Shown: positions 1 through 15,955 of the stretch, in pieces
Layout of the letters: the number at the start of each line of letters is the position of its first letter
Position numbering within the stretch: the first letter of the stretch is position 1
Virus record (IMG/VR): IMGVR_UViG_3300034101_003366
Coordinates: 1 to 26,779 of that record
Source of the DNA: a virus
Direction: 5' to 3' (one strand)
Length of the DNA: 26,779 nt
Program-made: the position numbers and the translations under genes
Notes under the pieces: model-generated
Seen by the model: only the letters and a program-made list of their open reading frames with translations
What the model was told of the DNA's origin: nothing
Database searches by the model: none

Positions 1-1121
1 ATTTCGTCTGGGGTAATCTTATAACTTAGTCCGGTGCTAGTTCTAAAATATGTTACAAAACTTCCAACAGGGATGGCGGCAAAAGTACCGTCACCGAACA
101 CCAGATCAATTTGATCTCCTGCTCTTGTATTAACTTGATAGCTTTTTTGTGCTGCATTATTATTATAGATAATGTTGACTCCGTTAACACTGGGAATTTG
201 ATTCCACAATTGTCCGACATTGCCTAAGCTACCAATTTCATATAGCCAAACATCTGAATTATTAATATTATCAAAATTAATACTAGCTAAATTATTAGGC
301 AAACTTTCAGGAAACCTAAAAGTCTGCGTTTGTAAATTTCCCTGTTTAAAATAAAAGAAAAATCCTGTGTTATTACTAGCATTGCCTAGATTGTCATTTT
401 TATAAATTACATTAAGAGGTCTGCCCGGTGCAGGTGCTGCTTCATAGATATAACTTTCATCTACACTGGTGCCGCTGACAACTTCAAAGTTTAAGGCAGC
501 ATTTTCAATTTGCGTGTTGTATCCAAAAACTGGTAGTGTACCTGCGGGCAAATTTATATTATATTCTGCATTTAATACCCCAGCAATAGTAGTACTGTTG
601 GCAGGTTTACCTACTTGCTGATTGGTCGGCAAAGCTGCATTAATTATTGTGATAAACTGTTCATACCAATTGACATTTCCGTTATCGTTCCAGTTTACAA
701 TAAGATTAGTAAGATCGATCCCGTTGCTGTCTTGTAATCTTTCAGTGGTTTGTACACTGTCGAATTTTATAAAACCATTGGCCGTTTGATTACGTTTAGG
801 CACATAGCTAATTAATTTAGCTAATTTTAAAACACTGTCTCTGCGTTCTGCTGTATCAATAAAATTTTCACGAGCGTTTAAATCTGTACGAAATGCAAGA
901 CTCTGTCCTAAAAATGCAATAAGGTCAATTAATGCAACATATTCGCTGGATTCGATGAAATCGTTAAAATTTTCTGGATAGTATATGCGTAGATAATCCA
1001 GCATTGTTTTACGCAAAGTTTGAAAATCATAACTTTGAAAATCTGCGTTTCTGAAAGTTTCGTAAAGAATAGTCCAGTCTTGATTGACTAAAAGACTACT
1101 TTGTCTGGTTGTAAGTGCCAT
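1..1121 (-). CDS. 6: Baseplate wedge subunit gp6, N-terminal part (cut by window edge)
   Basis: Starts at the ATG at 1121 and stays open to base 1, giving 373 codons without a stop; T4 gp6 is about 660 residues, so the C-terminal part lies outside. The N-terminus carries the typical gp6 pattern: an N-x-DFQSYDFQTLRKTMLDY stretch near residue 27, YYPENFNDFIESSEY, then LIAFLGQSLAFRTDLNARE and DTAERRDSVLKLAKLISY. In T4, gp6 forms the dimeric inner ring that links the six wedges around the hub and triggers the baseplate's shape change. It is last in the minus-strand baseplate operon, after gp25 as in T4. The 45-base gap upstream holds an ATAAATA motif, and a purine-rich GAGGACAGG precedes the ATG. 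Identity is firm. Confidence 0.93.
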   Translation of the reverse strand, partial: MALTTRQSSLLVNQDWTILYETFRNADFQSYDFQTLRKTMLDYLRIYYPENFNDFIESSEYVALIDLIAFLGQSLAFRTDLNARENFIDTAERRDSVLKLAKLISYVPKRNQTANGFIKFDSVQTTERLQDSNGIDLTNLIVNWNDNGNVNWYEQFITIINAALPTNQQVGKPANSTTIAGVLNAEYNINLPAGTLPVFGYNTQIENAALNFEVVSGTSVDESYIYEAAPAPGRPLNVIYKNDNLGNASNNTGFFFYFKQGNLQTQTFRFPESLPNNLASINFDNINNSDVWLYEIGSLGNVGQLWNQIPSVNGVNIIYNNNAAQKSYQVNTRAGDQIDLVFGDGTFAAIPVGSFVTYFRTSTGLSYKITPDE

Positions 1122-1139
1122 GCCTGTCCTCGTTTTATG

Positions 1140-1146
1140 TATTTAT
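1140..1146 (-). promoter_or_regulatory. Candidate gp55-type late promoter before gp6
   Basis: The minus strand reads CAATAAATAC here, 18 bases before the gp6 ATG and inside the 45-base gap after gp25. T4 late promoters are a lone -10 box, TATAAATA, read by gp55-loaded polymerase. A transcript would start close to the ribosome-binding GAGG. The motif is short and the DNA AT-rich, so this rests on position and on repetition before other virion genes. Confidence 0.5.
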
Positions 1147-1166
1147 TGAGAACAAAATATGGTATT

Positions 1167-1544
1167 TTAAAGCATTGAATTATTTTGAATCATTTGCTGA
1201 TCAAACTGCACAGCCAATTTAGCAGTCTGATTTGTTTGGATATAAATCAGATCTAATTCTATTTGTAATCCTCTGTCATACTGAGTTACAATCACATTCT
1301 GGGCTGCAATCCTTGGATCGTTTGCAACAATACGTTTTATGTCCTGTATTATTGTAGTTTTACTTTCTTCATTTAGGGGTTCGAATAGCATATCCCATAT
1401 TATAGTACCAAATTCGGGATTCATTAACTTTTCGCCTTTGCGAATGTTAAAATGATTTTGTAGATCTCGTTTGACTAATTCAAAATCAGTCAATCGAAAT
1501 CTCTTGTTACTTTCTAATGTGCTGAATCCGTTGTATAATACCAT
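1167..1544 (-). CDS. 25: Baseplate wedge subunit gp25
   Basis: 125 residues, close to the 132 of T4 gp25. The family's core pattern is present: a basic KRDLQNHFNIRKGEKLMNPEFGT stretch split around residues 25-47, followed by IIWDMLFEPLNEE and a C-terminal beta-strand region ending in VQFDQQM. gp25-like proteins (related to GpW and type VI TssE) seat the sheath on the baseplate and form the wedge core with gp6 and gp53. It lies 8 bases downstream of the spike gene and 45 upstream of gp6, the same gp25-gp6 adjacency as T4. A GGTAAATAT sequence overlaps the preceding stop codon but is too close to the ATG to act as an ordinary promoter for this gene. Confidence 0.93.
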   Translation of the reverse strand: MVLYNGFSTLESNKRFRLTDFELVKRDLQNHFNIRKGEKLMNPEFGTIIWDMLFEPLNEESKTTIIQDIKRIVANDPRIAAQNVIVTQYDRGLQIELDLIYIQTNQTAKLAVQFDQQMIQNNSML

Positions 1545-1552
1545 AACTATAT

Positions 1553-3709
1553 TTACCCTGTGCTAGTTATATTAGAGCTTTCAACACTAGCTTGTATAAC
1601 GGGAACCTGTGTTTGACTGTATTTTCCTTGATTATAAAAAGCAGAAGCAGTTCTGCCATTATCGTCGGCTGTAGGTTGCCCTGTTTTATACCAGTTAGTT
1701 GCAGCAGCAGATCCGACTAAATGGGCAGCACTAACAATGCCTGCAACATCGTCTACGGAGCTGTTTGCTGCGATAATACCATTTTTTTGTAATCTTGCAT
1801 AGTTCTCTTTAGTATAGTTATACATTGCCTTTTCTTGAATGGTTCCATTTTCTCTGAATGAATCCGAGCTCGAAATACCATCTTTTCCAGTCCAATTGTT
1901 GGGATTATTCAATGCTTCTGCTGTCTGCGGCGTTCCGGCCTTAATATATCCTAACTCTTGCAGTGCAAGAGACCCCAATTGATACTTGCCTTGATACCCT
2001 GCGTCATTTTGTGCTTGATAAGACCCGCCGCTTTCACTGTGTCCAATTTGTGCCATAACAGCTCTGAGTTGATTTTTATCTAATACGCCCATACTATCAA
2101 TGGGCTCGGGCTGAGCAATAAAAATTCCAGCTGGTGCTGCTCCTGTTAAGTTTTCAGTAGCTGCTTGAGTTGGCCCTACATCAGTGATGTCGGTTGGAGG
2201 ATTAATAGGATCTCCCAAAACATCTTTTGGCAAGCTAGCCACTGTTTCTCTTTGACTCTGAAATACTGCTGCTGCATCACCTCTGATGTATGGTTCGTGA
2301 GTTGGTACTTTATAATTTGTAGAAATTAAAGAATTTTGTTGCGCGAACCAAATACCTGGATTAGCAACTTTAGCATCGGGTAATTGATATAAGTTTATCC
2401 TACTGGGCGGATTTATTTCTGCGCCACCACCACCACCATTTAATGCTATCGCAGCACCGTTGACTGCAATAGAGCCACCTGCTCGTATACCCATAGATTG
2501 TTGGGCAACTAAAGACAATCCAGAGCCGCTTCTTAGTTGTGCTTGTTTACCATAAAGATTTAATGCAGTTTCTGCACTAGCTTGGACTAATTGTCCTGCC
2601 ATTTTAACACTGCCCACTGCTTGCATATTAATATTACGACCTGCAAAGAAGCTAATATTACTATCACTGTGCATCATAATATTACCCTGAGTACGTAAAG
2701 CAAAATCTTTTGCACCGTAGACTAAAATGTCTCCTTCTTTGGTAAGTTCTATCCATGCAGTTCCGTTAGAATTTGCAACATATATAAAACCTTCAGTGTC
2801 GTTTAACATTATCTGATGGCCCATTGCTGTTTTTAATCTTACCAAATTATCTTTACCTAATAGATCCCCGTCGTCCATGACAAGACTATGGCCGCCCACT
2901 CTTGTTGTAACATTGTATGTCGCGGGATTAAATTCCCCTGACACCAATTTTTGTGCGATATTAGGATCTGTTGCTGGATCTTGATTGCCAAAAGGTCTGC
3001 CAGGTGTACTAAATCCAAATACTGTACTCACTGGATCGCGTTGACTACTGCTACTAATAGCTCCACGAACATTATCACTATCTAGTCCCTGTACAATCAA
3101 TCTAATTGTTTGCGGAATATGTAGTGGTTTTTGTAAGTTAGGAAGAAAACTTGATTTGCCGTAAACATCTGCACTTTCCACTGTTTCTGCTACAGGATAA
3201 AATTTTCCCGGTAATAAGTAAGGGCCTAGTCCTGATTCAGAAATGCTTTCTTGAGAAATATAACTAAGTTCTACTGAACCAATTGCCGGAGTCATATTTC
3301 TTGTAATCGAAGAATTCACGCACGCAAACCAATACCCTTCTTGGCTTCCTGGAACAAAACAACACAAGACTTCTGTTCCAATATCCGGCGGACTCATATA
3401 AAATCCGTAACTCTGGGTCGAATCTGCAAAAGTATTTTGATTTGACTTAGGTTGTGTGTATTCTCCTAATCTACTAGATGTGCTGCCCAAAAAAGGGCTG
3501 GCATATGATACTAGTTTCCACGCCGACGCAAGATCGGGATTTGCGCCGCCAAACTGTGGTATAAACACTTGCAGTCTCCCTGACCTGGTGTTAGTGTCGA
3601 TGGCTTTTACTTTTCCGATATATATTCCGCTGGGTTGCGGAATATCAATTTTTGTAGTATCGATGAATGTAGGGTGTTTTGTACCTAAGTATGGTTGATT
3701 GTATGACAT
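1553..3709 (-). CDS. 5: Baseplate central spike, gp5-like, with C-terminal muramidase-like domain
   Basis: 718 residues. An OB-fold-like N-terminus begins near residue 28 (GIYIGKVKAIDTN, then LQVFIPQFGG). The middle, roughly 270-430, has the repetitive short beta strands of a VgrG/gp5 needle: LNDTEGFIYVANSNGTAW, WIELTKEGDILVYG, then runs of A/G/S/Q alternating with aliphatics, ending in a glycine patch. Residues about 545-700 resemble a lytic transglycosylase or lysozyme: HSESGG with candidate catalytic Glu559, then GYQGKYQLG and a helical tail. The expected role is piercing the outer membrane and clearing peptidoglycan. In T4 gp5 the lysozyme sits between the OB fold and the needle; here it follows the needle. 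Its start is 3 bases after the 929-residue hub gene. The spike call is secure, the enzyme class less so. Confidence 0.82.
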   Translation of the reverse strand: MSYNQPYLGTKHPTFIDTTKIDIPQPSGIYIGKVKAIDTNTRSGRLQVFIPQFGGANPDLASAWKLVSYASPFLGSTSSRLGEYTQPKSNQNTFADSTQSYGFYMSPPDIGTEVLCCFVPGSQEGYWFACVNSSITRNMTPAIGSVELSYISQESISESGLGPYLLPGKFYPVAETVESADVYGKSSFLPNLQKPLHIPQTIRLIVQGLDSDNVRGAISSSSQRDPVSTVFGFSTPGRPFGNQDPATDPNIAQKLVSGEFNPATYNVTTRVGGHSLVMDDGDLLGKDNLVRLKTAMGHQIMLNDTEGFIYVANSNGTAWIELTKEGDILVYGAKDFALRTQGNIMMHSDSNISFFAGRNINMQAVGSVKMAGQLVQASAETALNLYGKQAQLRSGSGLSLVAQQSMGIRAGGSIAVNGAAIALNGGGGGAEINPPSRINLYQLPDAKVANPGIWFAQQNSLISTNYKVPTHEPYIRGDAAAVFQSQRETVASLPKDVLGDPINPPTDITDVGPTQAATENLTGAAPAGIFIAQPEPIDSMGVLDKNQLRAVMAQIGHSESGGSYQAQNDAGYQGKYQLGSLALQELGYIKAGTPQTAEALNNPNNWTGKDGISSSDSFRENGTIQEKAMYNYTKENYARLQKNGIIAANSSVDDVAGIVSAAHLVGSAAATNWYKTGQPTADDNGRTASAFYNQGKYSQTQVPVIQASVESSNITSTG

Positions 3710-3712
3710 AAT

Positions 3713-6502
3713 TTAAATGAAATTAGTAAAGTCGCCGAATTCTAAATCGCCCAAACTTGCAAATGCTGCGGTCACATCAACATCTGTCACTCCAACATCC
3801 AAACTAATAAAATCGTTGATTGCAATTTGTTCCGCTGCGCTGGCCAATCCTGCGTATTGAAAATCTCCAATGGAATCAAAACTAGTATTGTAGTCTGTGC
3901 CTAATGCGCCTAAAGCCGTCGGACTCTTAAGCGCATCACTAATTCCAGTTGTTATTTTATCTACTGCAATATTTAATCCTCGGCCAACAACGTTATTAAT
4001 TAAAGATCCTGCTACTTGTGCGCCCAGTGCTTGAAGGAAGCTTCCACCTTGACCGTTAGCCAAAGCAGCAGCTCCTGCTACTGCAAGATTTACTGCTGCT
4101 GAAGAATTAATAGCTGGAATTAAAGAAGAAATATTAGTTCTCGGACCTGCAAATCTGATTGCTGTGTTCACTGTCGGAGTTAGCGCATTTGACAATGCAG
4201 TTTCTGTTCTTTGTGCAGCGGAAGAAGGAACCAATGGCTTTCCTTCTTGATCATACAATAGTTTTGCTAAAGTTAGTGATTGTTCAAATTTTCCATTAGA
4301 AAAAGAATTGTCAACAGTAATTATTTTATAAACTCCGCTAAATTCGCTGTATCTATATCTACTAGATGCTACGTCTGCTATACCTTTAATTTCGTCATAG
4401 TCCACTGGACTTTGAAAATTTACAAATACATATAGCTCTCCGCCGTCCATGTATAAACTACTACCCGAACTGTTATTTAAAAATTGACCTGATGGAGCCC
4501 CCAATCCTTGTCCCATGAATAAATCATCTTGTTTAATAAATTGCGGATCTCCTACAATTTTTAAATTTAATGTTATCATGTCTCCTTTGGCCCCTAGCAT
4601 CAAAGATCTCTGCAGATCTCCTGCGTCTGCAGATGCCTGTGGTAGTCCACCAGCTCTCATAGTTGTCGCAACATTGTCGCTGACTAGTGCTATAGAAGTT
4701 GGTGCAACATTCTCTTGTGGTCTTTCTTCAGTATTGGGATTAGGATAAGCATCAGCATTGGGTCTAATGGGAGTTCCTGTTTGTGATTGTGTGCTTTTTG
4801 TACGATTTGTGGACATCTCTACTAGATATAAAGTGTTAAAATCTATTTGTAAATCGATTACGTCTTTATTTTTTCCTGTAAAAATATAATCATATTTTTT
4901 TACAAATCCAGGCACACGACCTTTGGGATAAAATGGGTGTTTAGCAGATAAGTTATATGGCTTTACATAAAATACAATGTCCATACCATATCTGTTTTGT
5001 GTTGGATCATACTCTCTAATAGAGATACTAGGAATAATTCTAAACCATTTTAGCCACGTGATGGTATTAGGGTTTCCACCTGACAGAATACTGTCCCGTT
5101 GTTGTTGTGTTATTGTTGGGTCTTTTAACTGTTCACTTATATATGCACTGTTTCTAACTGCCCAATCAATCATTCTGTCAATGGTAGTACCTGCAGGAAT
5201 ATTTACGGTTGCCCCATCAAATCGAAGCCCCCCTTTGGCAGCGCCCGATGCTGCCTGAATTTGTGATCTTTGTGCAGCAGTTGACGTTCCGCTGGCTGGA
5301 GCTCCAGCTGCATTAACAGGACCTGTATATAATTTACTGTTGCCTATTTTTGCATCAAATACAACCCTAACAGTGTTGACTATAGATATTTGTTTTTGTG
5401 CTTTTAATGAACTAAAATAACTATTGATAGCGGCGCAGAATCCAGTTATTCCAAAACTTGAATATTCATTGTTTAATTGACTGGTCAAATCGCCTATTCG
5501 GGCCCGGGTGTCAGCCACAATGCTGGCATCAAATGGATCGCTGGACGCGGATGCTGCAAATGGTCTAAGTTCTGTATTAAGGCTTGTAATTTGTCTTTCA
5601 AGATTTGCTCTACTGGCAAGTTTTGCAGAAAATTCGTTGTCGCTGGCTGATACTTCAGCCGGACCACCAAATACTTGACTGACTGTGGTGGCTGTAACTG
5701 TGGTGCTAACAGGTAAGCTTACATGTGTTTGATTAAATGCCTGATGATTAAATGGCACTGCATCAATTTGATATTCTGTGCCTTTTGATGTTAATTTAGA
5801 CTTGATATTAGTTATCCTAATAGGAATAAATTTTGAATGTTCTTTGAGCGGCCCGGGTAGATCTCCGTCGACACTGCCAAAGAAATCAATTTGTAACATG
5901 TAAGGCATTTGCAAATAACTTCCTACTCCTTGATTAACTCTGTTTGCAGCATCCAACATTCTATTAATTAGTGTAAACCCCAATGGCTCGATAATTGTAA
6001 AACTACATTCAATTAAGTTACTGTTTCTATTTCTGGAAGTAGTATTAACTATGGTCTTTACTTTTAAGTTTTCGAAATAAAAATCTTCTTCAAATGCTGG
6101 ATCTCGTCTGAAAGTTGCACCGTATCTTCCTGCACTACTGATTAAAACATTTTGCGGTACATACTTTTTTTGTAATGAACTGTCTCTGCTGACCAAATTA
6201 TTGTAGTTTTGTATTCCCATTAAATGCAGACTCAGACAATAAGTGTAAGAATCATATTCTAACAATGGGTTATCAACTACACCTTGTCTGGTATTAGAAC
6301 CTATAAAAGCAGTAGTGCCAAATATTGCACGGCCTTCTGCATTACGTATTTGCGCCAACTCATTTTCGTTGGCTGCATCTATTGCTTCATCACCCACAGC
6401 TGGAATTAGATCTATTGCAGGAGTGGCAATATTTTGTCTTTCATTTAAGGAAATAGCAACAGCCGATGCATTGATGACCGTAGAATCTAAAGGATTTATC
6501 AT
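3713..6502 (-). CDS. Large baseplate hub candidate (gp27-position protein)
   Basis: 929 residues, with no close T4 match I can name. The first third looks like a folded beta-rich virion domain (FIPIRITNIKSKLTSKG, VPFNHQAFNQTHVSLP). A likely helical linker lies near 290-345, and a second beta domain near 490-560 contains MDIVFYVKPYNLSAKHPF. The C-terminal 150 residues are rich in Ala, Gly and Ser. It sits directly upstream of the gp5-like spike, where hub proteins of the gp27/gpD class are often found, so I infer it is the trimeric hub carrying the spike; T4 gp27 is only 391 residues. The start is supported by AGGA about 7 bases before the ATG and a 4-base gap to the gp53-like gene. A structural role is likely; gp27 equivalence is inference. 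Confidence 0.55.
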   Translation of the reverse strand: MINPLDSTVINASAVAISLNERQNIATPAIDLIPAVGDEAIDAANENELAQIRNAEGRAIFGTTAFIGSNTRQGVVDNPLLEYDSYTYCLSLHLMGIQNYNNLVSRDSSLQKKYVPQNVLISSAGRYGATFRRDPAFEEDFYFENLKVKTIVNTTSRNRNSNLIECSFTIIEPLGFTLINRMLDAANRVNQGVGSYLQMPYMLQIDFFGSVDGDLPGPLKEHSKFIPIRITNIKSKLTSKGTEYQIDAVPFNHQAFNQTHVSLPVSTTVTATTVSQVFGGPAEVSASDNEFSAKLASRANLERQITSLNTELRPFAASASSDPFDASIVADTRARIGDLTSQLNNEYSSFGITGFCAAINSYFSSLKAQKQISIVNTVRVVFDAKIGNSKLYTGPVNAAGAPASGTSTAAQRSQIQAASGAAKGGLRFDGATVNIPAGTTIDRMIDWAVRNSAYISEQLKDPTITQQQRDSILSGGNPNTITWLKWFRIIPSISIREYDPTQNRYGMDIVFYVKPYNLSAKHPFYPKGRVPGFVKKYDYIFTGKNKDVIDLQIDFNTLYLVEMSTNRTKSTQSQTGTPIRPNADAYPNPNTEERPQENVAPTSIALVSDNVATTMRAGGLPQASADAGDLQRSLMLGAKGDMITLNLKIVGDPQFIKQDDLFMGQGLGAPSGQFLNNSSGSSLYMDGGELYVFVNFQSPVDYDEIKGIADVASSRYRYSEFSGVYKIITVDNSFSNGKFEQSLTLAKLLYDQEGKPLVPSSAAQRTETALSNALTPTVNTAIRFAGPRTNISSLIPAINSSAAVNLAVAGAAALANGQGGSFLQALGAQVAGSLINNVVGRGLNIAVDKITTGISDALKSPTALGALGTDYNTSFDSIGDFQYAGLASAAEQIAINDFISLDVGVTDVDVTAAFASLGDLEFGDFTNFI

Positions 6503-6506
6503 CTTA

Positions 6507-6809
6507 TTATCCTATTGCGCTGGTTATTGCAGCTTTCTTAGGCAAAAATATTCTATTGCCTATTTTCATATCGAAGATAGGATCTTTAATAGTGTTAGGA
6601 TTGCGTAGTGCAAACACCCACCAAAGTCCAGTATCTTGATAAAGGTCGTATGCTAATAAATCTGGCCTATACTGATATGTTCTGTTTATTGCAAACAACA
6701 CATCGTCGGGATTCTTGGGTATTACTGGAAAATTAGCAAGATCTAAAAAGTCTCCGTAAAAAGGTGTTTTAGAATATAAGCTATTTTGAGCATATTGAAT
6801 TTCAGCCAT
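6507..6809 (-). CDS. 53: gp53-like baseplate wedge protein (LysM-like)
   Basis: 100 residues. After a short N-terminal arm it has the pattern YQYRPDLLAYDLYQDTGLWW, then VFALRNPNTIKDPIFDMKIG and IFLP at the end. This is the signature of phage gp53/LysM-like baseplate proteins: an N-terminal 'yr.dlLAy.lYGd..lWWv...rNp' segment and a final 'G..i.iP'. T4 gp53 is 196 residues, so this is a reduced form. gp53 completes the inner wedge with gp6 and gp25. Its ATG overlaps the stop of the upstream gene by one base (TAATG), indicating translational coupling. Identity is good; the LysM-like comparison is by sequence pattern only. Confidence 0.75.
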   Translation of the reverse strand: MAEIQYAQNSLYSKTPFYGDFLDLANFPVIPKNPDDVLFAINRTYQYRPDLLAYDLYQDTGLWWVFALRNPNTIKDPIFDMKIGNRIFLPKKAAITSAIG

Positions 6810-7696
6810 TATAGGAAACCTCCGATAGGTGAATTACCATTTTGTATTAGAGCACCTCGCGAGAATCTATCTAGTGTAAAGTTTCTAGAAATATTTTGTT
6901 TGCTGTATACAGGTTGTAAAGTAATGTTCACCGTGCTACTTGTTGGCAGTCGGACTGGGCCTCCTATATTTTGTGTAGGCGAACCTATCACCGTGCCTGA
7001 CATAGATGCGCCAACTGGAATGGCAACATAATCCACTTCCCCTGGCATAGTATGACTGAATGCCGTTACCACACAAGGAACATGAGGAAGATATGCTGCC
7101 CCAAATCCATCTAAAAATACCAGCGGAGGAGGACTACCTGCATTTTGATCTGCACCAAAAAACATCTTAGTAACAGTTCTAAAAAAATGTATTACAGCCA
7201 TTAGATACAAACCTTCTTTGATATTCTGCACTGTAAATTCTCCGGCTATATTAATAGCAGCAACTTCGCTGCCTTCATAAGAATAACTGGAGTAATTGCT
7301 ATGCGTCAATGAAGTAGAGCCATATCTTGCATTGTGGGTCACAGTTAAGGTTGGGGTATATGGAAAAATTACCCCGCTGGTTTCTGCTAGTGGACGTAGA
7401 ATGACACTATCTGCCCTGTTGTAAAATAAATCAGCAGTGGGTCTTGCCATACTAATTCGCACTCGCCAATCATCTTCTGGTTTTATAGGCGACCCGTCTG
7501 TACCATTAAAATTGATGTTAAATACACTGCCGGCGGCGTCTGCTAGTAATCCAGTGGCCCCAGGTGTTAAGCCAGAATTTGATAATCGGGCACCGCTGGT
7601 AGATGCTGCTCCAGTGGAACCTAACGGTGGATTACTTCCGTACAATGAATTCTGGTTAGAACCGTCCCCTGCAAAATTAGAAGTGTTATATGACAT
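6809..7696 (-). CDS. Baseplate tail-tube junction protein (gp48/gp54-like)
   Basis: 295 residues. After a Gly/Ser/Asn-rich first 55 residues comes a conserved-looking core: FPYTPTLTVTHNARYG, THSNYSSYSYEGSE, INIAGEFTVQNIKEGLY, IHFFRTVTKMFFG, SPPPLVFLDGFG and PGEVDYVAIPVG. The order 'IHF.R..TKM.FG' then 'PPP' then 'DYV' matches the tube-cap/tube-initiator proteins of T4-like phages; T4 gp48 and gp54 have 364 and 320 residues. Such proteins top the hub and nucleate tail-tube polymerisation. It is the first gene of the minus-strand baseplate operon, with a GATAAATAT late-type motif just upstream. I cannot decide between gp48 and gp54. Confidence 0.65.
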   Translation of the reverse strand: MSYNTSNFAGDGSNQNSLYGSNPPLGSTGAASTSGARLSNSGLTPGATGLLADAAGSVFNINFNGTDGSPIKPEDDWRVRISMARPTADLFYNRADSVILRPLAETSGVIFPYTPTLTVTHNARYGSTSLTHSNYSSYSYEGSEVAAINIAGEFTVQNIKEGLYLMAVIHFFRTVTKMFFGADQNAGSPPPLVFLDGFGAAYLPHVPCVVTAFSHTMPGEVDYVAIPVGASMSGTVIGSPTQNIGGPVRLPTSSTVNITLQPVYSKQNISRNFTLDRFSRGALIQNGNSPIGGFL

Positions 7697-7713
7697 TTTT
7701 TACCTGTTTTAGA

Positions 7714-7720
7714 TATTTAT
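7714..7720 (-). promoter_or_regulatory. Candidate late promoter of the baseplate operon
   Basis: The minus strand reads CGATAAATATC, with its 3' end 17 bases before the ATG at 7696, inside the 111-base divergent gap. It fits the T4 late -10 box TATAAATA in seven of eight positions. An AGG lies between it and the start codon. It would drive the operon from the tube-cap gene through gp6. Confidence 0.55.
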
Positions 7721-7751
7721 CGAACCAAAAATAGTAGCTTATTATTAAAAG

Positions 7752-7780
7752 TTGACATTGCTTGCTTAACATGTTAGTAT
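7752..7780 (+). promoter_or_regulatory. Near-consensus sigma70 promoter for gp55
   Basis: A perfect -35 box TTGACA (7752-7757), a 17-base spacer, then TAGTAT (7775-7780, one mismatch to TATAAT) preceded by TGT, an extended -10. Predicted transcription start is about 7786-7788. It points into the gp55 operon and away from the minus-strand baseplate genes. It is the best host-type promoter I found in the window. Confidence 0.8.
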
Positions 7781-7807
7781 GCGCTAACCGTGAATTTAAA
7801 GGACAAA

Positions 7808-8689
7808 ATGAAATCAAACTACTTAAATAATAAAGATATTCTTAAAGAGATACACAAAAGCAAAAATTCATACTGCTCATTTATTAGCCCAGACGTTGCA
7901 GATTATGATATGATTCTGCCAGACGTTAAGAAAATTAACAAAAAAAATATCTTAGATGCTCGTAAGTTAAGAGCAGAAAGATTAAGTAAATTGGCACACG
8001 AAGCTGCCGTGGCAGCCACTGGAGAAAAGCAAAAAGCTGATCAATTTGAAATCAAATATACTAAAATTCCCCAAACTGAAGTAGTCTTTCGAATTATGAC
8101 ATGGGAACACATACCACTAGATGACGTTAAAACTAAAAAAGCCAAAGACGCAGCCAAAGAATTATTCGACGACGAAGACGAAACTTCTCATACTGAATAC
8201 GATGAAGATGATCCTAAACACAACAAATACGTTAAAGTTAACTTCCCGCCGTTTTTTCATTACAAAGTAGATGAAGAAGGCAACCCTATTCTAGTAGGCA
8301 AAAGTCATTGGTCGGGAGAATTAGATACTGGTTCGTTTAATAGAGATCACGGAGCAATGACTAACAAACTAGCTCACATGTTTATGAAACTGTGTGAACG
8401 TTATGCAACTAGAAGTAATTGGAGAGGTTATACTTATAACGACGAAATGAGAAGTCAAGCCTTGCTACAGCTCAGCCAAATTGGACTTCAATTCGACGAA
8501 TCGAAATCACAGAACCCTTTTGCTTATTATACTGCCGCTATCACTAATAGCTTCACTCGTGTGCTAAACATCGAAAAACGCAATCAAAACTTACGTGACG
8601 ACATTTTAGAAATGAACAATCTCAATCCAAGCTACACTAGACAAGGATTGAGTTCTGGTGGAGGAGGCTCTAACTTTTACGATGAGTAA
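7808..8689 (+). CDS. 55: Late transcription sigma factor gp55
   Basis: 293 residues from the ATG at 7808. The diagnostic part is near the C-terminus: from N236, NPFAYYTAAITNSFTRVLN followed by IEKRNQNLRDDILEMN, the conserved block of T4-family gp55 sigma factors. A basic and acidic N-terminal region precedes it, with a Asp/Glu cluster around residues 115-138. gp55 binds host core RNA polymerase and recognises the single late promoter box. This protein is longer than T4 gp55 (185 residues). The start was chosen because AAGGA lies 4 bases upstream of 7808 and because the alternative in-frame GTG at 7790 would fall at the predicted transcription start. It is followed by an 8-base overlap with the next gene. 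Confidence 0.85.
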   Translation: MKSNYLNNKDILKEIHKSKNSYCSFISPDVADYDMILPDVKKINKKNILDARKLRAERLSKLAHEAAVAATGEKQKADQFEIKYTKIPQTEVVFRIMTWEHIPLDDVKTKKAKDAAKELFDDEDETSHTEYDEDDPKHNKYVKVNFPPFFHYKVDEEGNPILVGKSHWSGELDTGSFNRDHGAMTNKLAHMFMKLCERYATRSNWRGYTYNDEMRSQALLQLSQIGLQFDESKSQNPFAYYTAAITNSFTRVLNIEKRNQNLRDDILEMNNLNPSYTRQGLSSGGGGSNFYDE

Positions 8690-9581
8690 CAAAATGGCAG
8701 TTTTAAATATAACCGAATCGACATTTGACTTCAATAATGTTGACCCGTACAGTAAATTATTAATTTCCGGAGACAAAATCATTGACAATAACTATAACTA
8801 TCATACTTCAATGGCAGATATGACTTCTGAAGAAATTTTAAATATTGCCAATCAATTTGAATCTATAAATTTTGTCTCGCAAGGGTTTGACACAACATCA
8901 GATGCCTACAAAGAATCGTTAATGTTGATAAGTGTATTGTGTCACAAAAAACTTGTTACAGGGTATGAGCCACCGCCTATTACTCAATTTTTATCAATAG
9001 ACGTTACCGATCGCCCAGATACTCCGGTACTCTGGGTATTTGGATGTAGTCATAGTCACGGCGTTGGGCTAAAATCTGACGAGAAAAATTTTGGCCAGAT
9101 AGTTGCAGATGTATTAAAAATTCCGTTGTTAAACATTACTCAGCCAGGTTCTAGTCTAAATTGGAGTTTTAGACATTTAATTAATGCCGACATTAGGCCC
9201 GGCGATCGTGTTATATGGCAAATCACTACTCCACATCGATTGAGTGTATTTACCAACGGTCGTGTAACAGAAGTTGTATTAAACAACACATTAAATAGGT
9301 GTTTGCTCGATGTTAATAATGATGATCAAGTATTTTTCAATCATGTCAATCTGTTAACTTCTGGAGTTAGATATCTAAGGGCAATAAAGAATCAATTTTT
9401 GTTAACTGACCTTACTAGCCGCACTTGTTGTAATTTTTACAAATATAAATTGGAATATTCAAAATATCCCGAATATGTGTATCATCCAACCCTATATCTT
9501 GATTACGGGTCAGATAGAGTACATGCTGGTCCTTTGAGCCACAAGGCTCTTGCTCAACGTATACTAGATTGTGTATACTAA
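8682..9581 (+). CDS. SGNH/GDSL-hydrolase-like protein
   Basis: 299 residues from the ATG at 8682, which overlaps the gp55 stop; a GTG at 8658 and an ATG at 8694 are also possible. Residues 118-128 read WVFGCSHSHGVG, placing Ser123 in a GxS motif like block I (GDS) of SGNH hydrolases but with Cys for Asp. Near the C-terminus DRVHAGPLSH gives Asp278 and His281 in the block V D-x-x-H arrangement. PGDRVIWQIT around 180 fits a Rossmann-like strand. Members of this fold act as esterases or acetyl-hydrolases on sugars and lipids. The substrate is unknown; decoration of surface polysaccharide is one guess. It separates gp55 from gp47. Confidence 0.55.
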   Translation: MSNKMAVLNITESTFDFNNVDPYSKLLISGDKIIDNNYNYHTSMADMTSEEILNIANQFESINFVSQGFDTTSDAYKESLMLISVLCHKKLVTGYEPPPITQFLSIDVTDRPDTPVLWVFGCSHSHGVGLKSDEKNFGQIVADVLKIPLLNITQPGSSLNWSFRHLINADIRPGDRVIWQITTPHRLSVFTNGRVTEVVLNNTLNRCLLDVNNDDQVFFNHVNLLTSGVRYLRAIKNQFLLTDLTSRTCCNFYKYKLEYSKYPEYVYHPTLYLDYGSDRVHAGPLSHKALAQRILDCVY

Positions 9582-9585
9582 ATAG

Positions 9586-10602
9586 ATGAGTAATTTATTT
9601 AAAAAAGCTGCGATATTTACTGACATCCACTTCGGATTAAAATCAAATAGTCAGTTACACAACGAAGATTGTTTAAATTTTGTTAAGTGGGCAACTAACA
9701 AAGCAAAACAAGAAGGCTGCGAAACCGCCATGTTTCTTGGCGATTGGCACAACAATCGAGCCAGTATTAATATTGTTACTCTCAATTACAGTTTAAAAGC
9801 ACTGGAGTACTTGAATGATAATTTTGAACGTGTTTATTTTATTCCTGGTAATCATGATTTGTATTATCGGGATAAACGTGATATTCAATCGGTTGAATGG
9901 GCTCGTCATCTCCCGAACGTTCAAATTGTTAACGATTGGTTTACTAGCGGCGATGTGGTTATTGCTCCTTGGCTTGTCGGAGACGACCACAAACGAATTT
10001 CCAAACTCAGAGGAAAATACATGTTTGGACACTTCGAGCTGCCCCACTTCTATATGAACGCCATGGTGCAGATGCCTGATCACGGCGAAATTAAAAATGA
10101 ACATTTTGGAAATTTTGATCAAGTATTCACTGGACATTTTCATAAAAGACAGCAACGTCAGAATATTACATATATTGGAAATTGTTTCCCTCACAACTAC
10201 GCCGATGCCGGCGATGATGAACGGGGATTAACTATTTTAGAATGGGGCAAACCCCCAGAACATCATGCATGGCCCGACCAACCCCGTTATCGTGTATTAG
10301 GATTAGGCGCTATTTTGAATAACGCAGATTCGGTTTTAGGACAAGGTATGCATGTTCGTGTTAACATCGACATCGACATTAGTTACGAAGAAGCAACGTT
10401 TATTAAAGAAACGTTTATGCAAAGTCACAAATTACGTGAAATTACATTAATTCCACAAAAAAATGTAGACTTAAATGAATTTGCAATTCAAGGCAATGTT
10501 AATTTTGAAAGTGTAGATCAAATTGTTACAAATCAGTTAACCGCTATTACTAGCGACCACTACGACAACAATTTGTTGCTGGATATTTACAGAAATTTAT
10601 AA
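9586..10602 (+). CDS. 47: Recombination endonuclease subunit gp47 (SbcD/Mre11-like)
   Basis: 338 residues, against 339 for T4 gp47. All metallophosphoesterase motifs are visible: D13-x-H15 (FTDIHFG), GDWHNNR at 52-58, GNHD at 88-91, then GHFELPH near 146 and GHFHKRQ near 183. With gp46 it forms the Mre11-Rad50-type complex that resects DNA ends for recombination-dependent replication. It begins 4 bases after the SGNH-like gene and ends 2 bases before gp46, so the pair is co-translated. A C-terminal segment after residue 240 is likely the gp46-binding part. Confidence 0.95.
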   Translation: MSNLFKKAAIFTDIHFGLKSNSQLHNEDCLNFVKWATNKAKQEGCETAMFLGDWHNNRASINIVTLNYSLKALEYLNDNFERVYFIPGNHDLYYRDKRDIQSVEWARHLPNVQIVNDWFTSGDVVIAPWLVGDDHKRISKLRGKYMFGHFELPHFYMNAMVQMPDHGEIKNEHFGNFDQVFTGHFHKRQQRQNITYIGNCFPHNYADAGDDERGLTILEWGKPPEHHAWPDQPRYRVLGLGAILNNADSVLGQGMHVRVNIDIDISYEEATFIKETFMQSHKLREITLIPQKNVDLNEFAIQGNVNFESVDQIVTNQLTAITSDHYDNNLLLDIYRNL

Positions 10603-10604
10603 TC

Positions 10605-12377
10605 ATGTTTAAGATTAAATCACTGTCAGTTAAAAACTTTATGAGTGTAGGCAATGCCACTCAGGGCATCGATTTCGATCGCAATGACTTAACATTGGTA
10701 TTGGGTGAAAATTTGGACTTAGGCGGCGATGACAGTGGTGCTCGAAATGGAACTGGTAAAACTACTATCATTAACGCATTAAGCTATAGTCTGTTCGGCC
10801 AGGCACTAACTAATATTAAAAAAGACAATTTGATTAATAAAACTAACAGCAAACACATGTTAGTTACCATTGATTTTGAATCTGAAGGTCGCCACTACAG
10901 AATTGAACGGGGCCGCAAACCAAATGTACTAAAGTTTTACGTAGACGACGAAGAATTAGAAACCAAAGACGATAACAGTCAAGGGGACAGTCGCGAAACA
11001 CAATTAGAAATTGAACGTCTGTTAAATATGAGTCACGATATGTTCAAACATATTGTTGCTTTGAACACCTATACAGAACCATTTTTAAGTTTAAAAGCCA
11101 ACGATCAACGAACTATCATTGAACAATTGCTGGGTATCACTGTACTGTCAGAAAAAGCTGAAGCACTTAAAGAACAAGGCAAATCCACTAAAGAAGAAAT
11201 TCAACAGGAAGAATTTCGAATTAAAGCTGTAGGCGATGCAAACAAGCGAATTCAAGACCAAATTGATGCGCTGATTCGTCGACAAACATTGTGGACTAAT
11301 AAGCACAAAGATGACCTCGCATTATTACAGGCAGCATATGATCAGCTCGCAGAATTAGACATAGAGTCTGAGTTAGACACTCATAAAAAATTAGCAGAAT
11401 ATAATACAAAAAGTAAACAAATAGCCGATCTTAAAACTTTGGTTAAACGCTGCGAACAAGATGAAACCAGGGAATCCCGGGAGATAGAAAAGCTTAAAAA
11501 AGAAATTTTAGCTTTAGAAAATCATACCTGTCATAGCTGTGGACAATCATTTCATGATGCCAAACAAGTGATTGTTTTGGAAGAAAAACAAAAAACACTA
11601 CAAGAAACTGTATTACAAGCATTGGCTACTAATACACAATTGCTGGAAAATCAAGAAGCTCTCAACCTACTAGGCGAGCTGGGACAGAAACCAGTGACAT
11701 TTTATAAAGACGAAAGCGATGCGTTTGAACATCGTAGCAGCATGGCATCTGTTCTTACTCAATTAAATTCTAAACAGTCAGAACAAGACCCGTACACAGA
11801 TCAAATTAATGATATGAAGGAAACGGCTGTTGAAGAAATAAATTATGATTATATGAATTCGTTGGTACGAATTAAAGATCACCAAGAATTTTTACTTAAA
11901 TTATTAACCAATAAAGATAGTTTTATTCGTAAAAAAATTATCGATCAGAATCTCAGCTACTTAAATGCAAGATTGGGATTTTATTTGGATAAGATTGGGT
12001 TGCCGCATACAGTTAAGTTTAACAATGACTTGTCTGTTAGTATTGAAGAATTGGGCAGAGAGCTAGATTTTGATAACTTATCTCGTGGAGAGAGAAATCG
12101 ACTCATACTTAGCCTGAGTTGGAGTTTTCGTGATGTATGGGAAAGTCTTTATCAACCTATCAACTTGTTGTTCATCGATGAACTAGTGGACAGCGGAATG
12201 GATAGCAGCGGCGTCGAAAACAGTTTAGCTATCTTAAAGAAAATGAGCAGGGAAAGCAATAAAAGTGTATGGCTAGTAAGTCACAAAGATGAACTGGCCG
12301 GGCGTGTAAATAATATTTTAACTGTAGTTAAAGAAAACGGATTCACTAATTACAGCACTGACGTCGAAATAAACTAA
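10605..12377 (+). CDS. 46: Recombination endonuclease subunit gp46 (SbcC/Rad50-like ATPase)
   Basis: 590 residues; T4 gp46 has 560. An ABC-type head split by a coiled coil: Walker A-like GARNGTGKT at 45-53, long charged helices about 170-300, zinc-hook C309-H-S-C312, returning helices to about 440, the signature LSRGER at 492-497, and Walker B LLFIDEL with Asp525 and Glu526. A late His in VSHKDE is the switch histidine. It partners gp47 in processing DNA ends and degrading host DNA in T4. It is the last recognisable T4 core gene before the accessory cassette; the T4 order 47-46 is kept. Confidence 0.95.
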   Translation: MFKIKSLSVKNFMSVGNATQGIDFDRNDLTLVLGENLDLGGDDSGARNGTGKTTIINALSYSLFGQALTNIKKDNLINKTNSKHMLVTIDFESEGRHYRIERGRKPNVLKFYVDDEELETKDDNSQGDSRETQLEIERLLNMSHDMFKHIVALNTYTEPFLSLKANDQRTIIEQLLGITVLSEKAEALKEQGKSTKEEIQQEEFRIKAVGDANKRIQDQIDALIRRQTLWTNKHKDDLALLQAAYDQLAELDIESELDTHKKLAEYNTKSKQIADLKTLVKRCEQDETRESREIEKLKKEILALENHTCHSCGQSFHDAKQVIVLEEKQKTLQETVLQALATNTQLLENQEALNLLGELGQKPVTFYKDESDAFEHRSSMASVLTQLNSKQSEQDPYTDQINDMKETAVEEINYDYMNSLVRIKDHQEFLLKLLTNKDSFIRKKIIDQNLSYLNARLGFYLDKIGLPHTVKFNNDLSVSIEELGRELDFDNLSRGERNRLILSLSWSFRDVWESLYQPINLLFIDELVDSGMDSSGVENSLAILKKMSRESNKSVWLVSHKDELAGRVNNILTVVKENGFTNYSTDVEIN

Positions 12378-12398
12378 TTGTAATTCAAGGAAATAAAA

Positions 12399-13928
12399 AT
12401 GGAAAATGTGTTTGCAGTGATTTTATCAGTGCCCAGAATTACGCCAGTACGGCCAAGTTTGGCGCCTGCTATTATTAAATCACTGATATCAAAACATAAT
12501 TTATCTGCAAAAATTGTAGATATTAACATAGATTTTTATAATACCTTTGCTAAAAAATATGGATCTAATATTTTTAAAAAAATTGATCAATATTTAATTG
12601 GGTTAAACAACAGCCCACTCGATTCAAAAGCTCAAGAGTGCTATGATGAATATTTAAATTTTTGGGTTCGCGAACTTATAAAAATTAATCCAACACATTT
12701 TTTTATATCTGTGTTTACATGGCAAGCACAACGATTTGTAAGAGATTTTTTATCAATATTGCGGCACAATACCTCAGCAAAAATCCTAGTAGGCGGGCAA
12801 GGTATCGGAGAAATTAGAGAACAGACCAGTTGGATAGGTAAACCGATTTATGCCGAGAAACTTAAACAACTAGGATTGATTGATCATTGGATCAAAGGCG
12901 ATGCGGAAACAACTATTCCATTAATATGTCAAGGAATTTATACCGGGCCAGGCATCGATACTGACACGTATGCTAGTTGGAGCACTTTAAAAGAAAACCC
13001 TATTCCAAATTTCGATGACTTAGATATTTCCGCGTACCACAACGGTCTCCCAGGAGGTATAATTCCGTTAGAAATTTCTCGGGGGTGTGTAAGAAGCTGC
13101 AACTTCTGTGACTGGGTCACTTCGGGTGGTGGGTTTCGTACAAAAACTGGTTTACAAATGTTCAAAGAAGTAAAACACTATGTAGAAAAATATAATGTGA
13201 AAAATTTTTACTTCAATGATGCTCTTATCAACGGTTCTATAAAAGAATTTAATAAATTTAATCAGTTGTTAGTAGAGTACTATAAGAAAAAGAATTGGCC
13301 TGACAGGTCTATAAATTATTCAGGCCATTTTATTATAAGAGGACCGCAACACGGTTGGAAAAAAGAAGATATAGAATTAATGGGCAGGGCAGGTGCGTAC
13401 AGTATGGTAGTCGGAGTTGAAACTGGATCGGACCAGGTTCGACAAGCTATGAACAAAGGGTACAATACTGCCGATTTAGATTATAACATGGAAGAATTTG
13501 TTAAACATGGTATAAAACTATATATGTTAATGATGATCGGCTATCCCACTGAAACTAGAAAAGACTTCGACGAAACATTAGAATTATTAAAGCGATATCA
13601 AAAATATGTAGCAGGTGGACATATCAGTGGTGTAAATCTTGGGCAAACTTTTATAATTGAAGAAGGTGCTCCAATTTTTTATAAGCCCGAGCAATTGGAT
13701 TTAGTTGGTGTTAATGGTTCAGATCAACCCAGAGATGTATTTTGGATGAACCCGCAGAATCCTGAATTAACTTATAAAGAAAGAATTAAACGTAGAATCG
13801 AAGCCCAAGAATTGGTAACGAAGTTAGGATACCCTATATGGAGAGGGGATGCTCAGCTTGGATGGTTAATAAAAAAGTACAAAGACATTTACGACGGAAA
13901 TTTTAATGAACATCAAACTACAATTTAA
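12399..13928 (+). CDS. Radical SAM protein with cobalamin-binding-like N-terminal domain
   Basis: 509 residues, AAGGA upstream of the ATG. Residues 1-150 form a Rossmann-like domain in the position of the B12-binding domain of class B radical SAM enzymes, but I see no D-x-H-x-x-G cobalamin motif. Residues 215-420 are the radical SAM core: ISRGCVRSCNFCDW gives the [4Fe-4S] triad Cys230, Cys234, Cys237, followed by FYFNDALI, VVGVETGSD and LMMIGYPTE strands typical of the partial TIM barrel. The tail (about 430-509) is unique to this subfamily. The reaction is unknown; relatives perform methylations, ring rearrangements and methylthiolations. The next gene starts inside its last 23 bases. Confidence 0.82.
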   Translation: MENVFAVILSVPRITPVRPSLAPAIIKSLISKHNLSAKIVDINIDFYNTFAKKYGSNIFKKIDQYLIGLNNSPLDSKAQECYDEYLNFWVRELIKINPTHFFISVFTWQAQRFVRDFLSILRHNTSAKILVGGQGIGEIREQTSWIGKPIYAEKLKQLGLIDHWIKGDAETTIPLICQGIYTGPGIDTDTYASWSTLKENPIPNFDDLDISAYHNGLPGGIIPLEISRGCVRSCNFCDWVTSGGGFRTKTGLQMFKEVKHYVEKYNVKNFYFNDALINGSIKEFNKFNQLLVEYYKKKNWPDRSINYSGHFIIRGPQHGWKKEDIELMGRAGAYSMVVGVETGSDQVRQAMNKGYNTADLDYNMEEFVKHGIKLYMLMMIGYPTETRKDFDETLELLKRYQKYVAGGHISGVNLGQTFIIEEGAPIFYKPEQLDLVGVNGSDQPRDVFWMNPQNPELTYKERIKRRIEAQELVTKLGYPIWRGDAQLGWLIKKYKDIYDGNFNEHQTTI

Positions 13929-14475
13929 AGTCGAACGCCGTTTAGGAGATCCCACGATTACTGTAATTATCGACGATAATATGCCCAGTTACACAGGGGT
14001 ATGCCCTGATCAACTTGAATTAAATGTTCCAGTTATTTCGGGCTGTCACGAATTAAGAATACAACATTACGGTAAGAAAACAACAGATCATGTATATGAT
14101 AGCAGCGGTAAAGTTATTATCGACAAACATGTGGAAATAAAATCTATAGTATTGGATGATGTAGAATTAGTTGAAGAACTTTGGGATGGAGAATTTTATC
14201 CTGTATACGATCAAGATTATCTAAAAGATTGCATTAGTGCAAATATTAAAGTACCATATAGTCTAAGACCTAATTTATATTTAGGTCATAATGGTACTTG
14301 GATTTTAAAATTTGAATATCCGTGTATAGATTGGCTTTTGGCCGTCAGGCAAAATAAAATATTTAAAGTCACTGATCCAGACTTTATAACCAGTGAAGAA
14401 GATTTACAACGAGCAAAAGATTTTTTTAATTCGGCCCCCGACTTACCTTGGGATTTAGATTTTATTAAACGATGA
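13906..14475 (+). CDS. Conserved-looking hypothetical protein, beta-rich
   Basis: 189 residues, not recognised. It starts within the end of the upstream radical SAM gene, with GGAA a few bases before the ATG, and ends in an ATGA overlap with the membrane protein gene, so all three are probably co-translated. Sequence character: soluble, beta-strand-rich first half with CPDQLELNVPVISGCHELRI, a middle segment VELVEELWDGEFYPVYDQDY, and a C-terminal part with Trp/Phe/Tyr clusters (GHNGTWILKFEYPCIDW). The alternation of strands and aromatic residues could suit a sugar-binding or beta-sandwich fold; that is a guess. No catalytic motif, signal peptide or membrane segment seen. Confidence 0.7.
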   Translation: MNIKLQFKVERRLGDPTITVIIDDNMPSYTGVCPDQLELNVPVISGCHELRIQHYGKKTTDHVYDSSGKVIIDKHVEIKSIVLDDVELVEELWDGEFYPVYDQDYLKDCISANIKVPYSLRPNLYLGHNGTWILKFEYPCIDWLLAVRQNKIFKVTDPDFITSEEDLQRAKDFFNSAPDLPWDLDFIKR

Positions 14476-14825
14476 CTTTACAACAAATTTTTATAGCTAC
14501 CACAGTTTGGGCTATTCTCACAGCCATAGTGTATACACATTCAAATTGGAGCAAGATTAAACATTGCTATAAAATGTGGTTTACAAAAGAATATTGGACT
14601 GATTATAATATTGTAGAATTCGCTAGTTGGTCCGCAAAAGCTATTATTATTGTACCTGGTTTAATTTTTGGAATACAAATTTGGTGGTTATATTTTTTAA
14701 CTTTATTCACCAGCTTGACACTTATTTGGGCCAGCAATAAAAAACTTCTTCCTACATTAATAGGATTTAATACCATATGGGTATGGATTAGTTGCATGGT
14801 ATTGGCAAAGCATTTAATAACTTAA
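14472..14825 (+). CDS. Small multi-pass membrane protein
   Basis: 117 residues with about four hydrophobic segments: roughly 5-22, 55-71, 72-89 and 95-113, separated by a short basic loop (HSNWSKIKHCYKMW) and a KK-containing turn near 91. No signal peptide and no known motif. The ATG overlaps the upstream stop as ATGA. It lies between two radical SAM genes, and the next reading frame begins inside its last codons, suggesting it works with the cassette, perhaps as an inner-membrane anchor or transporter fragment. Not recognised as holin or spanin; four short segments without a basic tail argue against a classical holin. Confidence 0.65.
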   Translation: MTLQQIFIATTVWAILTAIVYTHSNWSKIKHCYKMWFTKEYWTDYNIVEFASWSAKAIIIVPGLIFGIQIWWLYFLTLFTSLTLIWASNKKLLPTLIGFNTIWVWISCMVLAKHLIT

Positions 14826-15955
14826 AACAATTTCTACTCGTGTTCCGCTTTAATTCAATATACGAATATCAACTTGAAGTTACAACGTATTGTAATGCAG
14901 CTTGTCCCCAATGCCCTAGAAATATTCAAGGATCTGGAATAAATCCTTACATGCCATTAGTACATTTAGATCGACGTATAGTGGATTCGACATTTAGTAC
15001 TGATCACTGCAAAAATCTTCGTCAGATATTTTTCTGTGGCAGTTACGGCGATCCTATTATGCATCCCGACTTTTTAAGTATACTACAAGATTTTAGAAAT
15101 AAGAACCCAACCTTATGGTTATACATTCACACCAACGGTGGTGTACATGACGAAAGTTATTGGTGTGAAATAGCTAACATAATGTCGGGATATGGTCAAA
15201 TTGATTTTGGTTTTGATGGACTTGAAGATACGTTACCGATATACAGACGTAATGTAAAATATGAAATAGCTATGCGTAATGCCAGAGCTTTCATAAACGC
15301 GGGTGGTAGAGCACAATGGAATTATATTGTGTATAAACACAACGAGCATCAAGTTGAAGAAGCTAGAATATTAAGTCAAAAGTATAAATTTTATAATTTT
15401 TTACCTAGAAAAACTGGCAGATTTTATGATCACAAAAATGAAACTAGCTATCCAAATTGGCCTGTATTGAATAAAAATAGAGAAACAGAATATGTGTTAG
15501 AAGCCCCTGTTGGGCAAGAATGGCAAAACCCTAGCGTACAAAAAATACAAATTTTAAAAAAAATGCATGGGAGCTTTCACGATTACTTAAAACAAACAAC
15601 TATCAAATGCGATGCTCTATTAGGAAACAAAGTTGTCATTACTGCTGAAGGCCTAGTGTTGCCATGCAATTTCTTTGAACATAATTTATATGATGCAAGA
15701 TTTCATGCAGACAATTATATGCCTGGCGTAAATGATGCAAGTTTTATAAACGGTAAAAATCAAATTATGGAATTTATTAATCATTATAAAAACGAAATCG
15801 ACATAAAGCAGAAAAATCTATGTGATATTTTTAAATCTCAATTTTGGACAGAGTTAGTCAATCGATGGTCAGGAAAAGATAAAATTATGGAATGTGCAAT
15901 GACTTGCGGAGAAAAATTTACAAAGGTGTGGGATCAAGGAGGATCTATTAGATGA
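14792..15955 (+). CDS. Radical SAM protein with SPASM/Twitch-like C-terminal cysteines
   Basis: 387 residues if the TTG at 14792 is used; a GTG at 14840 would give 371 and avoid the 34-base overlap. Neither has a clear ribosome-binding site. TTYCNAACPQCPRN holds the cluster triad Cys34, Cys38, Cys41, right after the first strand, as in the PqqE/AlbA/MoaA type. IFFCGSYGDPIMHPDF is the GGE-like region, and LYIHTNGG and IDFGFDGLED follow as barrel strands. The C-terminal half has KCDALLGN, VLPCNFFEH and MECAMTCGE, resembling auxiliary-cluster cysteines. SPASM proteins often modify peptides or sugars. The ending overlaps the dehydrogenase-like gene as ATGA. Confidence 0.8.
   Translation: MHGIGKAFNNLKQFLLVFRFNSIYEYQLEVTTYCNAACPQCPRNIQGSGINPYMPLVHLDRRIVDSTFSTDHCKNLRQIFFCGSYGDPIMHPDFLSILQDFRNKNPTLWLYIHTNGGVHDESYWCEIANIMSGYGQIDFGFDGLEDTLPIYRRNVKYEIAMRNARAFINAGGRAQWNYIVYKHNEHQVEEARILSQKYKFYNFLPRKTGRFYDHKNETSYPNWPVLNKNRETEYVLEAPVGQEWQNPSVQKIQILKKMHGSFHDYLKQTTIKCDALLGNKVVITAEGLVLPCNFFEHNLYDARFHADNYMPGVNDASFINGKNQIMEFINHYKNEIDIKQKNLCDIFKSQFWTELVNRWSGKDKIMECAMTCGEKFTKVWDQGGSIR

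Follow-up and report, generated by a model that had tools for sequence, protein, structure and literature searches.

Results

The window, i.e., the whole stretch of 26,779 bases of the virus record that was analysed, contains a gap of 111 bases (7697-7807) between the start codons of two genes that run in opposite directions. On the + strand, the gap is followed by a gene for a gp55-like late sigma factor of 293 aa (7808-8689), which has an ATG start and an AGGA Shine-Dalgarno sequence and matched the profiles phrog_12791 (E 1.7e-76) and phrog_234 (E 3.1e-24), placing it in the late sigma family of T4 gp55; a comparison with Pfam gave no match at E 0.001. On the - strand lies a gene for a virion structural protein of 295 aa (6809-7696; phrog_12050, E 1.4e-42), after which genes for a baseplate wedge (6507-6809) and a virion protein (3713-6502) follow on the same strand; the matches of these leftward genes also included phrog_7145 and phrog_11190. 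Downstream of gp55, on the + strand, there are an ORF of 302 aa (8673-9581), which lies between gp55 and gp47 and for which neither PHROG nor Pfam gave a match at E 0.001, and the genes gp47 (SbcD-like, 9586-10602; phrog_100, E 1.9e-59) and gp46 (SbcC-like, 10605-12377; phrog_77, E 3.3e-96). Judging by their spacing, gp47 and gp46 are likely to be co-transcribed with gp55 as one operon. In one relative (L047), the sequence between gp55 and gp47 seemed by eye to differ from the 302-aa ORF of the window. Beyond gp46, the + strand encodes two radical SAM proteins (PF04055; 12399-13928 and 14792-15955), beside which lies a short-chain dehydrogenase-like ORF (15952-16536); a SegE-type GIY-YIG endonuclease (PF19835, E 2.4e-32) is encoded at 16574-17008.

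Direct reading of the gap confirmed the letters and coordinates given in the initial annotation, which had described a TTGACA-N17-TAGTAT promoter with an extended -10 facing gp55 (7752-7780, + strand) and a late promoter on the opposite side. The -35 hexamer TTGACA (7752-7757) agrees with the sigma70 type at 6/6 positions and is followed by a spacer of 17 nt whose last letters are TGT. The extended -10 (7772-7780) consists of this TGT, with TG at 7772-7773, and TAGTAT (7775-7780), which agrees with TATAAT at 4/6 positions. By these letters, it is a putative sigma70-type promoter, and its -35 is TTGACA rather than the TGAAACG of the class-2 promoters of phage CBB. The leader between TAGTAT and the ATG of gp55 is short and includes the AGGA. 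An inverted repeat without strand, GTTAG-N6-CTAAC (7773-7788), spans the -10 as well as the expected start site; its left arm belongs to the -10, and its right arm may be the discriminator and start site. The repeat may be either operator-like or a core promoter with its initiator. On the - strand, the divergent virion gene is preceded by the late promoter box GATAAATAT (7721-7713), i.e., GATAAATA in the gap is a late-type promoter that faces this gene. Two further late boxes, both AATAAATA, were found at 18513-18520 (+ strand), before an ORF of 695 aa that starts at 18561, and at 1140-1147 (- strand), before an ORF that has its ATG at 1121 and is open at the left end. All three boxes thus precede ORFs, the first of them the one starting at 7696, and correspond by sequence to T4-type late promoters, with A or G and not T as the first base. 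The late box and the gp55 promoter of the window are 61 bp apart, and any overlap of the two promoters is therefore marginal.

Loose sigma70 matches were not enriched in positions 1-20000 of the window (75 vs 70.9 in shuffles, sd 9.2), and TTGACA-N16-18-TAnnnT was found once, with 1.4 expected. When the extended -10 was added to the pattern, the gp55 promoter was the sole match on either strand of the window, and none was found in 20 shuffles. The late octamer [AG]ATAAATA occurred three times, which is fewer than the shuffle mean of 5.8, and all three copies were intergenic. It was also rarer than in shuffles (six for each genome) in two large relatives, G001 (354 kb; 42 vs 54.0) and G008 (339 kb, with a gp55 that is 86.5% identical and starts with ATT; 40 vs 79.5), where 27/42 and 32/40 copies, respectively, lay at most 60 nt before an ORF start. 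On its own, the window is thin evidence and proves little; the decisive evidence is conservation in the relatives.

A near-identity DNA search of phage records with the window gave no match. In IMG/VR, the gp55 match on a 74-kb contig (L156) is identical, and the promoter letters of that contig do not differ from those of the window. The tblastn search with gp55 matched 452 phage records, the best of which belonged to the PA5oct group (43.9%), followed by Phosso, Atu_ph07 and RaK2/GAP32-like jumbo phages. From IMG/VR, the best 80 of the matches listed were taken, and then 80 and another 80 using queries from two other clades, which gave 161 distinct usable upstream regions (71 old and 90 new). 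The window itself (L001) was left out of the relatives. The set of 74 distinct loci was found by gp55 protein similarity, while the start-codon and Shine-Dalgarno counts and the tree were based on 135 distinct loci of 174, pattern-selected loci included. L047, L048 and L058 had no usable start, and the script found no upstream gene for L016, L023, L042 and L065; L052, L065 and L077 were left out of the 22-promoter and start-codon counts and entered the shuffle-controlled counts of the 74 loci with corrected starts. The gaps of the named phages were taken from their annotation, with which the script disagreed at L082 and L085.

In all 10 named phages that were inspected, the genes left of gp55 run the opposite way. 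The gene adjoining the gap encodes an adenylyl-/cytidylyltransferase in Phosso and Atu_ph07 and is unannotated in several of the named phages. Based on annotation and gene order, gp47/gp46-like genes come after gp55 in 9/10 of them, with other ORFs intervening in Phosso and Atu_ph07; in the Vibrio phage, the annotation of the second gene reads only 'coil containing'. In SCTP-2, which has unannotated genes, no gp47/gp46-like genes were identified at this place.

Both promoters are conserved. Among the 74 distinct loci, an extended -10 was present 27-48 nt before gp55 in 56 (shuffle mean 1.8), and the complete window-type promoter, TTGAC-N17/18-TGnTAnn[AT]T, in 21 (shuffles 0.0). The late hexamer of the opposite strand, TATTTA, was found in 69/74 loci (19.5 in shuffles) and TATTTAT in 67/74 (7.5 in shuffles). 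In the larger set, TATTTA on the + strand at most 135 nt from gp55 was found in 159/161 distinct loci and TATTTAT in 140/161. TATTTA was also present in the gaps of 10/10 named jumbo phages, and GAACG/GAAACG in two of these, GAP32 and XaC1. Thus, the divergent pair of a host-type and a late promoter, which had been read from a single gap, is kept in the relatives. The 22 window-type promoters were picked for TTGA and TGYTA, and these letters are hence conserved by choice; at the remaining positions, the C of TTGAC was found in 95%, the third-base G of the -10 in 82%, the fourth-base T in 95% and the bases of the CTWAC arm in 73, 73, 68, 91 and 82%, and the far part of the spacer drifts (27-50% identity). 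No promoter class fitted 18/161 distinct loci.

The comparison with other host-type promoters showed how particular the gp55 site is. In G001, there were 17 host-type sites with an extended -10, of which 11 were intergenic and seven of these had TATAAT; TAGTAT was found solely at gp55. G008 has 14 such sites, with TAGTAT at gp55 alone. When both genomes were pooled, TATAAT was present in 16/29 of the other host-type sites and TAGTAT in 0/29. Judged by its letters, TTGAC..TGTTAGTAT-N3-CTWAC is a variant promoter that stands at gp55 alone in these two large relatives and is not their common host-type promoter. The initial annotation had described a strong host-type promoter that would make gp55 an early or middle product; the host type is borne out, but not the strength, since TAGTAT shares only the four positions with TATAAT and occurs at none of the other sites. 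In IMG/VR, 93 stretches match TTGACN15-16TGTTAGTATN3CTWAC exactly and 88 of these, which were not de-duplicated, precede gp55 (86 by script and L139 and L164 by eye); this search selected on the motif and therefore measures specificity and not conservation. The five matches away from gp55 (L119, L128, L135 and L137, which are alike, and L182) were searched for a regulator and had truncated or unrelated-looking ORFs that gave no lead. A separate observation in G008 is that four near-identical host-type promoter-like sites, TTGAC[CG]GAAAnTCCC..TGCTATAAT, lie in 7073-29097, perhaps an early region.

In the window as in G001 and G008, the sole intergenic copy of the inverted repeat GTTAG-N6-CTAAC is the one before gp55; G001 and G008 each have one further copy inside an ORF. 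Among the 22 loci with a window-type promoter, its arms are paired at 5/5 positions in 10 and at 4/5 in six; CTTAC, which breaks the symmetry, was found in four, and no compensatory changes were seen by eye.

In other clades, the two promoters are packed more tightly. The distance from the late hexamer to the -10 is 11 bp in 13 and 23 bp in 17 of the 74 loci. Among the 90 new distinct loci, both boxes were found in 58, with 34 at 23 bp, six at 11 bp, one at 19 bp and 17 at 45-91 bp. In the 23-bp class, the late box sits exactly at the place of the host -35, given a 17-bp spacer. A third class ('E') has TATTTA-[G/T]-TTGAC-N17 and a -10, with the same spacing of 30 bp from hexamer to -10 in 20/21 loci and TATAAT in 18/21 (21 of 23 rows were counted; L324 and L361, C-like by eye, were left out). 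The flanks vary, from 20 to 35 nt between the -10 and the gp55 start and from 18 to 37 nt between the late box and the divergent start. The fixed spacings partly reflect common descent. Among the 17 and 15 host-type matches and the 42 and 40 late octamers of G001 and G008, respectively, the gp55 locus is the sole divergent pair of a host-type and a late promoter within 150 bp. Given the size of a polymerase footprint, two polymerases would presumably be unable to occupy the DNA of the compact classes together, and the overlap of the late box with the gp55 promoter at clade-fixed spacings suggests mutual exclusion and self-braking. Of the compact early-to-late switch that the initial annotation saw in the window, the divergent pair stands, but the window promoters are apart and the tighter overlap (11, 23 and 30 bp) belongs to other clades. 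The interference between polymerases that it considered possible would have to be by occlusion, which is conceivable where boxes overlap and less so over the 61 bp of the window, because divergent polymerases cannot collide; head-on collision was rejected for this reason.

Two further arrangements were observed. The gap of the distant 490-kb phage Atu_ph07 (L084) has, by eye, a TATTTAG-TTGACA junction like that of the third compact class, without an obvious -10, and at 299424-299443 of G001, two late boxes stand back to back on opposite strands with 12 bp between their starts.

The start of gp55 was aligned in the relatives. In the window it is ATG, so that a non-canonical start of the IF3 type is found not there but, by sequence, in 17 relatives. 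ATT stands at the aligned first codon in these 17 distinct loci (including L002-L007, L030, L036 and L044), with AGGAG/GGAG approximately 7 nt upstream; GGAG was present in 17/17 ATT loci vs 4/88 loci with ATG, GTG or TTG (identity at least 60%). The set of 161 loci includes 19 with ATT, all of which have GGAG, and 15/19 had no upstream in-frame ATG, GTG or TTG before a stop. Among the loci with separated promoters, GGAG accompanied 14/14 ATT, 1/12 ATG and 0/16 GTG starts; it is also present in 42/103 compact ATG loci, and so is not peculiar to ATT across the family. An AUU start codon is used by infC. As controls, a canonical start was found at or within five codons of the aligned place in 76/76 gp47 genes (56 ATG, 20 nearby) and 65/65 gp46 genes (51 ATG, three TTG, 11 nearby), and 34/34 gp53 genes had a canonical start; the virion gene was uninformative, as seven of the 17 loci that aligned at the start had no canonical codon nearby. 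A weak start codon (GTG, ATT or TTG) is frequent for gp55 in the window's clade. When the start codons were placed on a quick tree built from 129 gp55 proteins, parsimony required 19 changes. All 103 loci with compact promoters have ATG, and 30/42 with separated promoters have a non-ATG start. On the tree, this association gave two firm independent pairs (starred branches, p 0.5), and because only these two are firm, it is a lead and not a result; in this test, 16/161 loci had no distance, and its classifier differs slightly from that used for the class counts.

Discussion

In this study, based on the comparison of one gap with those of its relatives, we consider it probable that the gap serves T4-related jumbo phages as a conserved region of bidirectional control, in which the gp55 promoter is moderate and individually controlled. 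Before there is any late transcription, the host RNA polymerase would start the gp55-gp47-gp46 operon rightward from a sigma70-type promoter dedicated to gp55, and the gp55-charged polymerase would start the baseplate/virion operon leftward from a T4-type late box. In the window's clade, gp55 would be restrained by the non-consensus -10 TAGTAT in the inverted repeat and often by a weak start codon, and in other clades the overlap of the boxes would mean that gp55 is not transcribed further while a late polymerase occupies the left promoter. Such a design would serve to provide gp55 early or at mid-infection while avoiding an overshoot. By analogy with T4 and CBB, gp55, along with gp47 and gp46, is most likely synthesised by the host polymerase before or around replication.

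Part of this picture is already known. According to the description of the CBB promoters (PMC5259590), gp55 of this phage (CBB_244) lies directly downstream of a host-like promoter, and ATAAATA late promoters precede structural genes, which is the same combination as in the window; the same promoter motifs are also reported there for GAP32. The host-like class of CBB comprises 18 promoters with TGAAACG at -35, of which 11 stand before a region with many ORFs for DNA synthesis (PMC5259590). The gp55 promoter of CBB belongs to this class, whereas the promoter described here combines TTGACA with TGTTAGTAT and, in two relatives, stands nowhere but at gp55. The section of that paper on promoters does not mention a back-to-back arrangement, a fixed overlap or start codons (PMC5259590). 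In a limited search of the open-access literature, no description was found of promoters overlapping back to back, of a spacing fixed by clade, of TGTTAGTAT-N3-CTWAC as an element restricted to gp55 or of the ATT start. As in T4, there is a sigma factor of the gp55 family, an ATAAATA late box and a late operon of virion genes, but the late box of T4 is given as TATAAATA (PMC2988020) and here it is [A/G]ATAAATA. Profiles of the T4 factors gp33 and gp45 (PF16805, PF02916) had no match in the five large genomes, yet the controls gave no match either; MotA (PF09114) was likewise found in 0/5 with silent controls, and the -35 of the window is TTGACA.

The simplest competing explanation, to which we give a nearly even chance, is an ordinary compact architecture in which gp55 has a host promoter and its neighbour a late one, with the spacing due to compaction and ancestry and no regulatory coupling. 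The divergent border is kept in every named phage, spacings that are fixed within a clade can be obtained by descent alone and the window boxes are as far apart as 61 bp, all of which this explanation accommodates. It accounts less well for an inter-box distance that remains constant while the spacer letters (by eye) and both flanks vary, for a pair that is the sole one of its kind in two large genomes and for a gp55 -10 that is unlike every other host-type site found in them.

It is possible, with some doubt, that a dedicated repressor or activator, encoded by the phage or the host, uses TGTTAGTAT-N3-CTWAC as its operator. The G by which the -10 departs from the consensus is maintained, YYWAC forms the right arm in 16/18 loci with this G and in 0/38 with another third base, and there is one intergenic site per genome. 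However, the 38 loci are mostly from other clades, so that descent confounds the association, and the search for compensatory substitutions and for a regulator gave nothing, with CTTAC variants among the loci. That gp55 is made chiefly late, through read-through or a late box on the + strand, with the host-type promoter playing a minor part, is improbable. ATAAATA is present on the + strand at most 70 nt from gp55 in 20/161 loci, and some loci may therefore also make gp55 late, but it is absent in 141/161, the window among them; moreover, the host-type promoter is conserved, and in T4 the RNA of gp55 was reported at t1 and the protein at t5, i.e., early/middle (PMC9697503). That the A+T-rich gap resembles a promoter by chance can practically be dismissed, as loose matches do occur at shuffle frequency, but the -35 and -10 are conserved around a drifting spacer, against shuffle controls and across clades.

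Within the reading of the gap as a bidirectional control region, a self-limiting switch through occlusion by the late box, whose brake is replaced in the window's clade by the operator-like -10 and weak starts, including AUU, is a tentative extension that we hold to be rather unlikely. In plasmid pLS20, overlapping divergent promoters have reportedly been described as a genetic switch; the compact gaps share such promoters with it and differ in that the candidate switch here would be the late polymerase itself. In Streptomyces, the GTC start of sigR is repressed by IF3, which limits the dose of this sigma factor (PMC5472188). This is also a sigma gene whose non-canonical start limits its dose, but in the phage relatives the codon is ATT (ATG in the window) and the Shine-Dalgarno sequence is strong.

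That the late sigma factor must not compete too early with the sigma70 of the host is recognised as a design problem of T4-like phages. In discussing a hypothetical gp55-gp33 fusion, the review of T4 late transcription indicates that dosage and timing become critical for a late sigma that binds the polymerase too well (PMC2988020). If the self-limiting switch is true, the first late transcription would shut off further synthesis of the late sigma factor, and if the AUU and other weak starts act as supposed, the timing of the late programme would be under the control of translation initiation. In giant phages, the gp55 region allows this design problem to be tested at a single locus defined by sequence, and natural variants with overlapping or separate promoters and with ATG, GTG, TTG or ATT starts are available for comparison.
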